DNA from: an uncultured Acidobacteriota bacterium
Lineage (GTDB): Bacteria > Acidobacteriota > Vicinamibacteria > Fen-336
DNA: 43,114 nucleotides
Reading direction: 5' to 3'
Assembly (NCBI GenBank): GCA_902826455.1
Contig: CADEEV010000003.1
Coordinates: 140,899-184,012, forward strand
Part shown: in pieces, positions 6,181-10,682 of the stretch
Layout: the number at the start of each line of letters is the position of its first letter
Position numbering within the stretch: position 1 is the stretch's first letter
Program-made: the position numbers and the translations under genes
Notes under the pieces: generated by a model
Told to the model about the DNA's origin: nothing
What the model saw: the letters and a program-made list of their open reading frames with translations, nothing else
The model's database searches: none

Positions 6181-6253
6181 CGGCTCCCTCGGGAGCATCG
6201 GCTAGAATGGCGCGTTCTGGCCGCGCCGCGCGGCCCCTTTGCCGAGGAGTCCG

Positions 6254-8335
6254 ATGCTGCATCGCCGCGCCGCCGTCTTCCCCTTGACCCTGGCCATCGC
6301 CGTGGCCGGCTGCCCCGGCTCGCCCAAGACGACGAAGCCCGCCCGCAAGGCCCCGAACAAGGTCTTCGTGATGGGCTTCGACGGCATGGACCCGACCCTG
6401 ACGCGGAAGTTCATGGACGAAGGCAAGCTGCCGAACCTCAAGAAGCTGGCCGAGGCCGGAACCTTCGAGACCCTCGGCTCGACCCAGCCCTCGGAGTCCC
6501 CCACCGCGTGGTCCAGCTTCGCGACCGGCGTCAACCCAGGCAAGCACAACATCTACGACTTCCTCACGCGCAGCTTCGAGACGTACCTGCCGGACCTCGG
6601 CATGGTGAAGAAGGGCGATCCGCCCGAGTTCCTGTGGGGGCTGTTCCCCACCAAGCTGCCCAAGCTCACGTCGATCCGAGGCGGCACCTCGTTCTGGGTC
6701 CACGCCGGGCGTGACGGCGTCAAGAGCATCGTGCTGACGGTGCCGGTGACGTTCCCGCCCGAGGAGATCGAGCACGGAGAGATGCTGTCGGGACTGCCGC
6801 TGTCCGACATGCGCGGCACGATCGGCACCTTCAACTACTGGGGCACGGACCTCACCTCGTTCGAGGAAGGCAACACCGAGTTCGGCGGCTACCTGAAGAC
6901 GCTGCTCTTCGAGAACGGCGTCGCCGAGACCTTCATCAAGGGCCCGGAGAACCCGATCCTCAAGCAGGAGGAGCGCGAGCTCAAGGCGAAGAAGAAGGAC
7001 GGCGCGCTCTCGGAGAGCGACCAAAAGCGCCTCGACGAGCTCGCGACCACGAAGGACGTGAACATCCCCCTCAAGGTGAAGTGGAGCGAGAACTCGGGGC
7101 AGGCCGAGCTCGAGATCCAGGGCCAGAAGCTCACGCTGAAGCAGGGCCAGTGGAGCGACTGGGTGCCGATCTCCTTCAAGTTCAACTTCCTCATCAAGGT
7201 CCACGGCATGACGCAGTTCTACGTCGTGCGCGCCGACAAGGAGCTCCAGCTCTACGCGTCGCCGGTCAACATGGACCCGCGCAACCCCCCGATCGCCATC
7301 TCCAAGCCCGACGACTTCGCGCCGCGCCTCGCGAAACAGATCGGCCTCTACCGCACCCTCGGCTGGGCCGAGTCCGCCGACAAGGCCCTGAACGAGGGGC
7401 GCCTGAGCGAAGCGGACTTCATGTACGACTCGGAGAAGGCCTTCGACGACCGCGAGCGGATCTTCTTCAAGAACCTCGAGCGCACCGACTGGGACCTGTT
7501 CGTCGCGGTGATCGAGACGACCGACCGCGTCTCGCACATGATGTGGCGCCTGATCGACCCCAAGCACCCGATGTACGACGCCGAGCTCGCGGCGAAGTAC
7601 GGCGACTCGATCGAGAAGGTGTACCGGCGCGCCGACGACCTCGTGGGCAAGCTGCAGGCGAAGCTGCCCGAGGGCACGGTGTTCATGGTCATGTCCGACC
7701 ACGGCTTCCACACCTTCCGGCGCGGCGTGAACCTCAACACCTGGCTCGTCCAGAACGGCTACATGTCGTTCCACGGCCAGCTCGACAACAAGAAGGGTCT
7801 CGCCGACCTGTTCGGCCGCGGCAAGTTCTTCGAGGGCGTCGACTGGACGCGCACCAAGGCGTACGCCGTCGGCCTCGGCCAGATCTACTTCAACCTGCGC
7901 GGCCGCGAATCCCAGGGCGTCGTGTCCGCGGGGGCCGAGTACAAGGCGCTCCAGGACGAGATCCGCGGCAAGCTCGTGACGCTGCTCGATCCCGACACCA
8001 ACGAGCCGGTGTTCCGCGACATCTACAAGCGCGACGACATCTACAAGGGCGAGTACCTGCAGTTCGCCCCGGACCTGCAGGTCGGCTTCAACGACGGCTA
8101 CCGGGTGGGCTGGCAGGATACACTCGGCGGCGTGACCCGGGCCGTGGTCGAGAACAACAACCGCAAGTGGAGCGGCGACCATTGCGCGACGGCCACCGAG
8201 ATCAGCGGCGGCGTCTTCTTCAGCAACCGCAAGATCGACACGAAGACGCCGAACATCATGGATCTCTCGCCCACGATCCTGAAGCTGCTCGGCGTGCCCC
8301 TCCCCTCGGACCTGGACGGCAAGCCCCTGATGTGA
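6254..8335 (+). CDS. Lipoprotein of the alkaline phosphatase / type I phosphodiesterase superfamily
   Basis: This is a predicted secreted lipoprotein of 693 residues. The N-terminus reads MLHRRAAVFPLTLAIAVAGC, ending in a lipobox cysteine. The core has alkaline-phosphatase-superfamily marks: FVMGFDGMDPT (first metal Asp), SESPTAWSSFATGVNPGKHN (nucleophile region), ETTDRVSHMMW, VMSDHGFHTF and WSGDHCAT (metal ligands). A Lys/Glu-rich insert of about 100 residues sits in the middle (about 225-330). The ATG at 6254 is preferred over a TTG at 6239 because GAGGAG (6244-6249) lies just upstream and the signal peptide then begins cleanly. A TAGAAT box at 6203-6208 is a plausible -10. The substrate is unknown; type I phosphodiesterase or nucleotide pyrophosphatase is a family name only. 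A second lipoprotein of this superfamily lies at 36128. Confidence 0.88.
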   Translation: MLHRRAAVFPLTLAIAVAGCPGSPKTTKPARKAPNKVFVMGFDGMDPTLTRKFMDEGKLPNLKKLAEAGTFETLGSTQPSESPTAWSSFATGVNPGKHNIYDFLTRSFETYLPDLGMVKKGDPPEFLWGLFPTKLPKLTSIRGGTSFWVHAGRDGVKSIVLTVPVTFPPEEIEHGEMLSGLPLSDMRGTIGTFNYWGTDLTSFEEGNTEFGGYLKTLLFENGVAETFIKGPENPILKQEERELKAKKKDGALSESDQKRLDELATTKDVNIPLKVKWSENSGQAELEIQGQKLTLKQGQWSDWVPISFKFNFLIKVHGMTQFYVVRADKELQLYASPVNMDPRNPPIAISKPDDFAPRLAKQIGLYRTLGWAESADKALNEGRLSEADFMYDSEKAFDDRERIFFKNLERTDWDLFVAVIETTDRVSHMMWRLIDPKHPMYDAELAAKYGDSIEKVYRRADDLVGKLQAKLPEGTVFMVMSDHGFHTFRRGVNLNTWLVQNGYMSFHGQLDNKKGLADLFGRGKFFEGVDWTRTKAYAVGLGQIYFNLRGRESQGVVSAGAEYKALQDEIRGKLVTLLDPDTNEPVFRDIYKRDDIYKGEYLQFAPDLQVGFNDGYRVGWQDTLGGVTRAVVENNNRKWSGDHCATATEISGGVFFSNRKIDTKTPNIMDLSPTILKLLGVPLPSDLDGKPLM

Positions 8336-9492
8336 GGCGGCTGGCGCTGCTGCTGGGACTGGCCCTGCTGGCGCCCGCCCGCGCGGGGGGTCAGTCGTCG
8401 TCCCCCTCGGCAGAGCCGTCGCCGCAGCCGGCGCCGGTCGGGGACGAGCGCCTCCGCAAGGTCCAGGAGCGCCGGGCCACCCTCGAGCGGGAAGTGGCCC
8501 GGTTGCGCGTGGAAGAGAAGAGCCTGCTCGGCGCGGTGGAGCGCCTCGAGCTCGAGGTGCGCCTGGGCGGCGAACGCCTGCGCGAGTCCCAGCTGCTCCT
8601 GCAGCGCACCAACGCCCAGCTCGACGCGACCCTCAAGCGCTCGCGGCAGATCGAGGCCCAGGTCGAGGCCGAACGGCCCCTGCTGAGGGCACGGGCACGC
8701 GACCTCTACAAGCTCGGCGACGTGTCGTACATGCGGCTGCTGTTGTCCGTCGAGCGGCCCGCCGACTTCCTCAACGGCTACCGCTACGTGACGGCTCTCG
8801 CCCGCCGCGACAACCAGCGCATCGCCGCGTTCCGGTCGGATCTCGTCGCCCTCGCGACCACGCGCCAGGAGCTCGAGACGAAGACCACGGAAGCGGTCGC
8901 CCTGCGCAGCGACCTGCAGCGCACGCAACGGCAGCTCGAGGCCGATCGCAGCCGCAAGACCGAGCTGCTCACGTCCCTCGTCGAGAAGAAGGAGACGAAC
9001 GCGGCCTACGTCCAGGAGCTGCAGGATGCCGAGAGGCGGCTCCAGGGGATGATCGCCGGCCTGGGCGACACCGACGTGGCGGTCCCCGCCGCCGTCTTCA
9101 AGGGCGCCCTGCCCTGGCCGGTGAAGGGGCGCGTGCGCATTCCCTTCGGCTTGCGCAAGCACCCGCGCTTCGACACCTACACGGTGCAGAACGGCGTCGA
9201 GATCGCGGCGCCCGCCGACGCGCCGGCCACGGCCGTCTACGACGGAATCGTGGTGTTCGCCGATCGCTTCAAGGGCTACGGGCTGCTCGTGGTGGTCGAC
9301 CACGGTGGCAAGCACCACACGCTCTACGGCCACCTCTCCGCGGCGACGGTCCAGCCCGGCCAGAAGGTCAGCGCGGGGGACACCGTGGGTCTCGTCGGCG
9401 GCGGCCTCGAGGGTCCCGGCCTGTATTTCGAGGTCCGCTTCCAGGGAAAACCCGAGGATCCCCTGGATTGGCTGAAGAAGGACGACAGGTAG
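8332..9492 (+). CDS. EnvC-like murein hydrolase activator with degenerate LytM (M23) domain
   Basis: This secreted 386-residue protein has a signal peptide (MRRLALLLGLALLAPARA), a long coiled coil (about 35-250) and a C-terminal LytM/M23 domain (about 262-380). The start is GTG 8332, which overlaps the previous stop (GTGA). The LytM domain lacks the usual zinc ligands: the H-x-G-x-D block is replaced by QNGVEIAAP, and the final HLHFE block reads GLYFEVR. Only YGHL keeps a His. E. coli EnvC is degenerate in the same way and activates the amidases AmiA/AmiB under FtsEX control, so a non-enzymatic amidase activator is the best inference. The S41 gene starts 11 bases after the stop, an arrangement often seen for envC and ctp genes. 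No amidase gene lies nearby. Confidence 0.9.
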   Translation: MRRLALLLGLALLAPARAGGQSSSPSAEPSPQPAPVGDERLRKVQERRATLEREVARLRVEEKSLLGAVERLELEVRLGGERLRESQLLLQRTNAQLDATLKRSRQIEAQVEAERPLLRARARDLYKLGDVSYMRLLLSVERPADFLNGYRYVTALARRDNQRIAAFRSDLVALATTRQELETKTTEAVALRSDLQRTQRQLEADRSRKTELLTSLVEKKETNAAYVQELQDAERRLQGMIAGLGDTDVAVPAAVFKGALPWPVKGRVRIPFGLRKHPRFDTYTVQNGVEIAAPADAPATAVYDGIVVFADRFKGYGLLVVVDHGGKHHTLYGHLSAATVQPGQKVSAGDTVGLVGGGLEGPGLYFEVRFQGKPEDPLDWLKKDDR

Positions 9493-9503: not shown

Positions 9504-10682
9504 ATGAGCCCGCGCGCCCGTCTCCTCGTCGCTTTCGTGTCCACCGGCGTCTGCGCCTACGTCCTCGCCGGCACCGTGCTCGGCCGGGTCTTCGGCGACA
9601 CGACCTACGGCCAGCTCTCGGTCTTCGGCGAGGTGATGAACCTCGTCCTGACCGCGTACGTGGATCCCGTGAACGTGGACCGGGTGATGGGCGGCGCCCG
9701 CGTGGGCCTGACCGACGCCCTCGATCCAGAGAGCGCCTACCTCGATCCCGAGGAGCTCAAGGCCTACCAGCAGCCGGCCAAGGACACGGACGCCGACATC
9801 GGCGTCGTGCTCTCGCGCCGCTTCACGTTCCTCGCGATCGTGGCGCCGCGAGCGGGCTCCCCCGCCGAGAAGGCGGGCGTCAAGAGCGGCGACATCGTGA
9901 AGACGATCGACGGCCGCCACACCCGCGGGGTCAGCGTGCCCGTGGGGGCGCGCCTGCTCCGCGGCGCGCCGGGCTCGACGGTCAAGCTCGAGATCCTGCG
10001 GCCGGGCGTCGATCCGGTGACGATCTCGGTCGTGCGCGAGCGTCTCACGGCGGAGGCGCCGAGCGGACGCGTGCTCGAGTCGGGCCCGGGCTATCTTCGC
10101 GTGGCCGAGTTCTCCCCGAAGACCGCCGACGCGGTGCGCGACGAGGTGGAGACGCTGAAGCGCGGCGGCGCCAAGAGCCTCGTGCTCGACCTGCGCGACG
10201 CCGCCTACGGCGATCCGGCCGACGGCGTCGATACGGCGGCCCTGTTCCTGAAGGGCGGCACCGTGGCGAAGGTCGTGGGACGGCGCGTCGCCGAGCGCAC
10301 GCTCACGGCCGATCCGAAACGCTCGGCCTGGGATCTGCCGATGGTCGTGCTCGTCGACTCCGGCACGGCGGGGCCGGCCGAGGTGGTCGCGGCGGCCCTT
10401 CTCGACGCCGGCAAGCCGGTCGTGGGCCAGCACACGTACGGCTCGGCACCGGTGCAGAAGCTGGTGACGCTGCCGGAGGGCGGCCTCGTCCTCACGGTCG
10501 CCAAGTACCTGTCGCCGAAGGGCAACCCGATCCACGGCAAGGGCGTCGAGCCCAGCGTGGCGGTCGCGCTCCACGACCTCGCGGACGACGACGACGACAC
10601 GACGGCGCCCGCGGGCGATCCGGTCCTCGACAAGGCGATCGAGATCCTGAACGGCGGCGGCGAGGTCAAGAAGGCGGCCTGA
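9504..10682 (+). CDS. S41/CtpA-family PDZ protein with catalytic Ser and Lys substituted (pseudoprotease)
   Basis: This 392-residue membrane-anchored or secreted protein has an N-terminal hydrophobic segment (about 7-28), a PDZ domain (about 95-185, with AGSPAEKAGVKSGDIVKTIDG) and an S41 tail-specific protease fold (about 190-375). In active members the block reads GTASASE and TFGKG, with the Ser and Lys forming the catalytic dyad. Here the same blocks read GTAGPAE (Ser to Gly at about 290) and TYGSAP (Lys to Ser at about 314). The fold-conserving block SPKGNPIHGKGVEPSVAV is intact and the frame is open, so this looks like a maintained non-proteolytic homologue rather than a decayed gene. It lies directly after the EnvC-like gene. 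A scaffolding role in controlling a cell-wall amidase is inference. A short Asp run (DDDDD) lies near the C-terminus. Confidence 0.9.
   Translation: MSPRARLLVAFVSTGVCAYVLAGTVLGRVFGDTTYGQLSVFGEVMNLVLTAYVDPVNVDRVMGGARVGLTDALDPESAYLDPEELKAYQQPAKDTDADIGVVLSRRFTFLAIVAPRAGSPAEKAGVKSGDIVKTIDGRHTRGVSVPVGARLLRGAPGSTVKLEILRPGVDPVTISVVRERLTAEAPSGRVLESGPGYLRVAEFSPKTADAVRDEVETLKRGGAKSLVLDLRDAAYGDPADGVDTAALFLKGGTVAKVVGRRVAERTLTADPKRSAWDLPMVVLVDSGTAGPAEVVAAALLDAGKPVVGQHTYGSAPVQKLVTLPEGGLVLTVAKYLSPKGNPIHGKGVEPSVAVALHDLADDDDDTTAPAGDPVLDKAIEILNGGGEVKKAA

Follow-up and report, generated by a model that had tools for sequence, protein, structure and literature searches.

Genes and features of the locus

The window, by which we mean the whole stretch of 43,114 nucleotides analysed from an uncultured Acidobacteriota bacterium, carries downstream of an EnvC-like gene an open reading frame for a CtpA homologue, pseudo-CtpA. 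The relevant features are as follows.

6239..8335, + strand: type I phosphodiesterase-family gene (PF01663), upstream of EnvC (Pfam)
8332..9492, + strand: EnvC-like amidase activator, coiled coil and degenerate LytM/M23 domain, GTG start (profile, alignment)
9504..10682, + strand: pseudo-CtpA, S41 fold with PDZ, without catalytic Ser/Lys, 392 aa (ORF, profile, alignment, structure match)
9510..9593, + strand: N-terminal hydrophobic helix, residues 3-30 (sequence; DSSP of the model, of low or middling confidence there)
9786..10043, + strand: PDZ domain, about residues 95-180, carboxylate site Arg153 retained, hinge Phe replaced by Asp96 (Pfam, structure, alignment)
10089..10562, + strand: S41 core domain, residues 196-353 (Pfam)
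10188..10211, + strand: degenerate oxyanion-loop motif DLRDAAYG, residues 229-236; DLRxNPGG in active CTPs (alignment)
10371..10373, + strand: Gly290 codon GGG, replacing the nucleophile Ser (sequence, alignment)
10443..10445, + strand: Ser314 codon TCG, replacing the general-base Lys (sequence, alignment)
10668..10679, + strand: C-terminal Lys-Lys-Ala-Ala tail, with -xAA common to most orthologues (tail counts)

The pseudo-CtpA frame extends from the ATG at 9504 to the stop codon at 10680-10682 without an internal stop. Pfam assigns residues 196-353 to Peptidase_S41 (PF03572; 107 bits, E 1e-30) and recognises the PDZ domain by both PDZ_6 (38 bits) and PDZ_2 (34 bits), each above its cut-off, such that the clean frame and retained PDZ domain noted in a first-pass annotation of this DNA are both upheld. 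The NCBIfam model TIGR00225 (prc) yields 203.5 bits, below its cut-off of 218.6. As judged from its sequence, the protein is a non-peptidase homologue and not an S41 peptidase, the lack of activity being inferred. The helix at residues 3-30, modelled with low to middling confidence, is predicted to be a signal peptide or membrane anchor preceding an N-terminal dimerisation region.

The EnvC gene, the GTG start of which (8332) overlaps the preceding stop codon, ends at 9492, 11 bp before pseudo-CtpA, from which we infer that both belong to the same operon. The best solved relatives of this EnvC are the EnvC proteins of FtsEX-EnvC complexes, and its LytM site, compared by eye, is degenerate in 8/8 aligned sequences. 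A PF01663 phosphodiesterase gene also lies directly 5' of EnvC in another Acidobacteriota genome (L111, 1737-3791).

Replacement of the catalytic residues

The closest solved relative of pseudo-CtpA is the CtpA of P. aeruginosa (E 3e-48), an enzyme with a Ser-Lys-Gln catalytic triad (PMC8764530). On alignment, its GSASAAE block (Ser302) corresponds to GTAGPAE in the window protein, placing Gly290 at the nucleophile position, and SFGKGSVQ (Lys327) corresponds to TYGSAPVQ, placing Ser314 at that of the base; only the third residue is retained, such that Ser302-Lys327-Gln331 of the active enzyme stands against Gly290-Ser314-Gln318. The proposal made from the sequence alone, that Ser is replaced by Gly at about 290 and Lys by Ser at about 314 in an S41/CtpA homologue, is thus confirmed at both positions, as are the coordinates then given for the frame. 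Two further changes, the loss of the NPGG loop and that of the PDZ hinge Phe, had been overlooked. The oxyanion loop reads RDAAYG where the active form has RNNPGG; the DLRxNPGG loop is nearly invariant in 70 active CTPs, in which Gly235 and Gly236 are conserved at 100%, in contrast to 25% for Gly235 in the pseudo-CtpA set. The scaffold residues Asp229, Arg231, Glu293, Gly308 and Gly313 are conserved at 99-100% in the pseudo-CtpA set and are near-invariant in the active set too.

Loss of the dyad throughout the phylum

Orthologues were collected from 40 relatives, from 297 genomes sampled across the phylum and from 35 genomes of families with weaker first matches. After removal of identical sequences and of the non-orthologue L250, a protein which possesses Ser and Lys but falls outside the pseudo-CtpA clade and groups with Armatimonadota, 116 orthologues representing about 73 Acidobacteriota family codes remained. 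Both Ser and Lys are missing from 107 of these, while 5 retain Ser only, 3 Lys only and 1 both, amounting to the absence of Ser in 95% and of Lys in 97%. Named genomes, from Vicinamibacteria and from other Acidobacteriota, carry identical motifs. The active CTPs used for comparison possess both residues without exception (70/70, comprising 19/19 from Myxococcota, 20/20 from Pseudomonadota, 4/4 from Armatimonadota, 2/2 from Gemmatimonadota and 25/25 long CtpAs of Acidobacteriota). Since the residue losses recur in more than 100 orthologues, neither sequencing error nor chance can account for them, and the same recurrence across the phylum excludes a pseudogene.

Position 290 is Gly in 92/116 orthologues, and Ser to Gly is the replacement that is conserved. 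At position 314, by comparison, 17 residue types occur, with Arg in 46/116 orthologues and in most Vicinamibacteria, and the change of Lys to Ser is unique to the window genome among its relatives. The expectation that Gly and Ser would be conserved together across the clade consequently holds for Ser to Gly and for the loss of the dyad as such, and does so for the entire phylum and not merely the clade, but not for Lys to Ser. Because Gly is near-constant whereas the base position drifts, the alignment suggests, although this remains an inference, that the exchange of Ser for Gly preceded the decay of Lys. The idea of a non-proteolytic, binding-only Ctp is supported in its first part by the conserved loss of the dyad (107/116), while binding fits the data but has not been shown. 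Either of two observations would have spoken against it: orthologues with an intact dyad, of which there is 1/116, nested inside the clade, and a catalytic role for the nearby Ser of VDSG. This Ser286 could be rejected as an alternative nucleophile, being unconserved, with Arg, Gly or Asn at that position elsewhere.

It could still be argued that the protein remains catalytic through a shifted or altered active site, using, for example, another Ser or Cys nucleophile, given that Gln318 is 73% conserved, that Cys replaces Ser in one family (f3) and that a single orthologue, L094, retains Ser and Lys. We consider this very unlikely: no other Ser, Cys or Lys is conserved near the active site in the orthologue alignment, Ser286 varies, and neither the diversity of residues at position 314 nor the loss of the NPGG loop is what this explanation would call for. 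Non-canonical catalysis is nevertheless not excluded, f3 being a case in point.

The f3 sequences themselves (L033, L034 and L035) form a divergent branch with Cys at the nucleophile position (GTVCPGE) and Arg at that of Lys.

Phylogeny and the exceptional member

In a mixture-model tree of 52 rows all Acidobacteriota pseudo-CtpAs are monophyletic, with support of 100/99 and recovery in 100% of 200 bootstrap trees, and in a quick tree of 157 rows the clade has a support of 99. In the 52-row tree the long CtpAs of the same genomes are separated from pseudo-CtpA with 97/98 support. Pseudo-CtpA groups not with these but with the EnvC-linked CtpAs, the branching among the EnvC-linked phyla being only moderately supported.

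L094 (3971-5170, - strand; genome G066, family code f35) is alone among the EnvC-linked Acidobacteriota members in having both Ser and Lys, has in addition Gln and a near-NPGG loop (RNNAGG), and is nested within the pseudo-CtpA clade next to the Lys-only members L275 and L100. That these close relatives keep Lys suggests that Lys was lost more than once. It is possible, so far as the sequence can tell, that L094 retained or regained activity, itself inferred, or that Lys was lost several times.

Fold, PDZ domain and selection

An AlphaFold model built from 19 sequences has a mean pLDDT of 84.8, with the core above 90, and superposes over residues 18-387 on P. aeruginosa CtpA (Z 37.6 over 344 residues), in keeping with the earlier statement that the fold is intact. 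The superposition on the CtpAs of P. aeruginosa and H. pylori takes in the segments through which CtpA dimerises at its N- and C-terminal ends, and we infer from the model that pseudo-CtpA may oligomerise likewise. The two pseudomonad and acidobacterial proteins agree in fold, domain order, position after envC, length class and predicted oligomerisation regions; they differ in that the window protein lacks the NPGG loop and the PDZ hinge Phe and has acquired a -KKAA tail.

Modules of the vertebrate interphotoreceptor retinoid-binding protein (IRBP/RBP3) also share the S41 fold (Z about 14-18), and are known for binding, not for proteolysis. Being retinoid-binding and only about 20% identical to pseudo-CtpA, they provide a precedent and not a functional relative.

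In H. pylori CtpA, which matches the window protein in fold with Z 37.6, the PDZ hinge residue Phe-105 contacts the substrate C-terminus, and a role of Arg-162 has likewise been described (PMC12749690). The window protein, lacking the catalytic residues of this enzyme, retains the Arg as Arg153 (49% overall, 78% in its own class) but has Asp96 in place of the Phe, a position occupied by Phe or Tyr in 97% of active sequences. This loss of the hinge Phe weakens the case for a simple role in binding C-termini. Within the same domain, residues 104-107 (window 9813-9824) form a basic-aromatic stretch, (T/S)(R/K)(R/Q)(Y/F), which is conserved in the pseudo-CtpA clade and variable in active CTPs; it is a candidate for a new binding surface, for which there are no binding data.

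Within the family dN/dS is 0.34-0.52, a value that is merely indicative because dS is near saturation, and pseudo-CtpA is under purifying selection. A decaying gene without present function could in principle be suspected from the faster evolution of pseudo-CtpA, which between a given pair of genomes has diverged more than the long CtpA (e.g. 67% as against 80% identity), but this proposal is scarcely tenable in the face of a full-length open frame in nearly every sampled genome, retention throughout the phylum, near-invariant scaffold residues, purifying selection, a conserved operon and a new tail.

Operon context and the relation to EnvC

EnvC directly precedes the gene in the majority of Vicinamibacteria loci and also in many further families, and in many Acidobacteriota families a divergent polysaccharide deacetylase of the SddA family (PF04748) lies 3' of it, although this deacetylase is absent from the 14 genomes of the window's own family. 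The same operon in Myxococcota and Pseudomonadota carries an intact CtpA. Since the gene order equals the envC-ctpA-PA5135 order of P. aeruginosa (PMC12569750), pseudo-CtpA is, on the evidence of gene order and sequence, a non-peptidase descendant of the CtpA of the envC-ctpA-deacetylase operon. In P. aeruginosa the CtpA of this operon (PA5134) is activated by LbcA and degrades cell-wall hydrolases (PMC12569750, PMC8764530). A comparable loss is found in the Agrobacterium envC operon, where the SddA homologue ATU2773 is inactive (PMC12440217): here too an enzyme of the same ancestral operon lacks active-site residues and still lies beside envC, although it is a polysaccharide deacetylase and not CtpA, and belongs to another phylum.

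Pseudo-CtpA might then be only a structural partner of EnvC in FtsEX-EnvC-amidase activation, with two pseudo-peptidases in one division module. The tight, operon-like linkage to EnvC in the window and in many families, the fact that EnvC is itself a degenerate LytM protein and the presence of two Amidase_3 genes in the window genome are all compatible with this. Nevertheless, a search of 23 genomes in which pseudo-CtpA has no EnvC beside it (they represent about 19 family codes, and the majority have a completeness of 90% or more) revealed no full-length EnvC at any other place, scores in these genomes being at most 122 bits, mainly from the M23 domain, as compared to 487 and 513 bits for the positive controls. 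EnvC can therefore not be the sole partner, at least one role of pseudo-CtpA must be independent of it, and we regard the purely structural explanation as rather unlikely. The EnvC-less loci that keep pseudo-CtpA are L066-L071, L074-L075, L077-L088, L090-L092, L095, L104 and L105.

The C-terminal tail and the active paralogue

The window protein ends in EVKKAA. An Ala-Ala end, of the form -K(K)AA or -xAA, is found in 73/126 pseudo-CtpA rows (58%) and in 45/73 family codes, the latter count being the safer since the 126 rows include repeat fetches of the same genomes. In the controls such an end is rare or absent: EnvC 0/76, long CtpA 1/25, active EnvC-linked CtpA 0/39 and other long ORFs 3/232, although some of the frames in this ORF set are spurious. 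Since C-terminal tails are what CTPs recognise, a PDZ protease, and in particular the active long CtpA, could plausibly grip pseudo-CtpA by its -AA tail, a recognition inferred by analogy.

The genome of the window organism encodes five S41 domains, among them a canonical CtpA on contig C42 with HSASASE and TFGKG motifs, and by virtue of these motifs the organism has an active-looking CtpA paralogue. Pseudo-CtpA could on this basis be a subunit that regulates the long CtpA, or a substrate trapped by it, its -KKAA end docking in the PDZ domain of the protease, with the consequence that it would act as an adaptor or competitive inhibitor or be subject to regulated turnover. The strong enrichment of the -AA tail, the intact long CtpA in every one of the Acidobacteriota genomes sampled for it (25/25), the degradation of SsrA-tagged proteins by E. 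coli Prc (PMC6686036), the CtpB structure 4c2g, which contains a peptide with Val-Pro-Ala at its end, and the adjoining inactive and active CTPs encoded by Armatimonadota, apparently independently, all argue in its favour. But the long CtpA is a separate paralogue, only about 30% identical, for which reason the formation of mixed oligomers is not self-evident; the -AA end is missing from about 40% of pseudo-CtpAs; and there are no binding data. The proposal is accordingly no more than tentative.

A probable non-proteolytic CtpA lineage

We conclude, with a probability of roughly 0.8, that pseudo-CtpA represents an ancient, phylum-wide and conserved lineage of non-proteolytic CtpA, there being no experiment on activity or binding. 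The protein has probably been repurposed from protein cutting to protein binding, its most likely function, again inferred, being a binding-based control of cell-wall enzymes, possibly via the active CtpA, by a mechanism that has not been demonstrated. That it serves the active CtpA or cell-wall hydrolases specifically as an adaptor, a mechanism likewise inferred, we hold only as a possibility.

In this scenario the CtpA of the envC-ctpA-sddA operon would have lost its nucleophile (Ser to Gly), general base and oxyanion loop early in Acidobacteriota, and the inactive protein would since have been retained throughout the phylum in a non-proteolytic role in the cell envelope, where it would be anchored to the inner membrane and, like the CtpA of P. 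aeruginosa, probably form oligomers. Its PDZ/core tunnel could hold C-termini or partner proteins without cutting them, so that the protein would help to control peptidoglycan hydrolases in the role of adaptor, trap or regulatory subunit. The -AA tail would most likely be the feature by which a PDZ protease recognises it, the active second CtpA being the foremost candidate. One speculative form of such control is a two-part CTP system, in which an active long CtpA is accompanied by a dead -KKAA CtpA recruiting, shielding or timing the turnover of peptidoglycan hydrolases. If true, this would be a bacterial counterpart of the active/inactive protease pairs, fixed early in Acidobacteriota.

Pseudoproteases usually occur as scattered paralogues. 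In the present case it is the operon-encoded form of a well-studied cell-wall protease that appears dead in almost every sampled family of Acidobacteriota, a major soil phylum, and intact in other phyla. Among the open-access papers searched, none was found that describes a CtpA inactive throughout a phylum. The annotation 'CtpA / S41 peptidase' is misleading for this gene in Acidobacteriota genomes. The lineage offers a deeply sampled natural experiment on the roles of CtpA besides cutting, and specific tests of function are made possible by the -KKAA tail and by the persistence of the gene without EnvC.

Tandem CTP gene pairs occur in Armatimonadota (L128, L148, L194, L195, L196, L199, L201, L204 and L205), where one member has a degraded site (e.g. 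GTANVSE / FGDG) and adjoins one with an intact site (SASASE / FGKG). The inactive partner is apparently of independent origin, and Armatimonadota would, if the two-part system proves true, have evolved a tandem version of it on their own.
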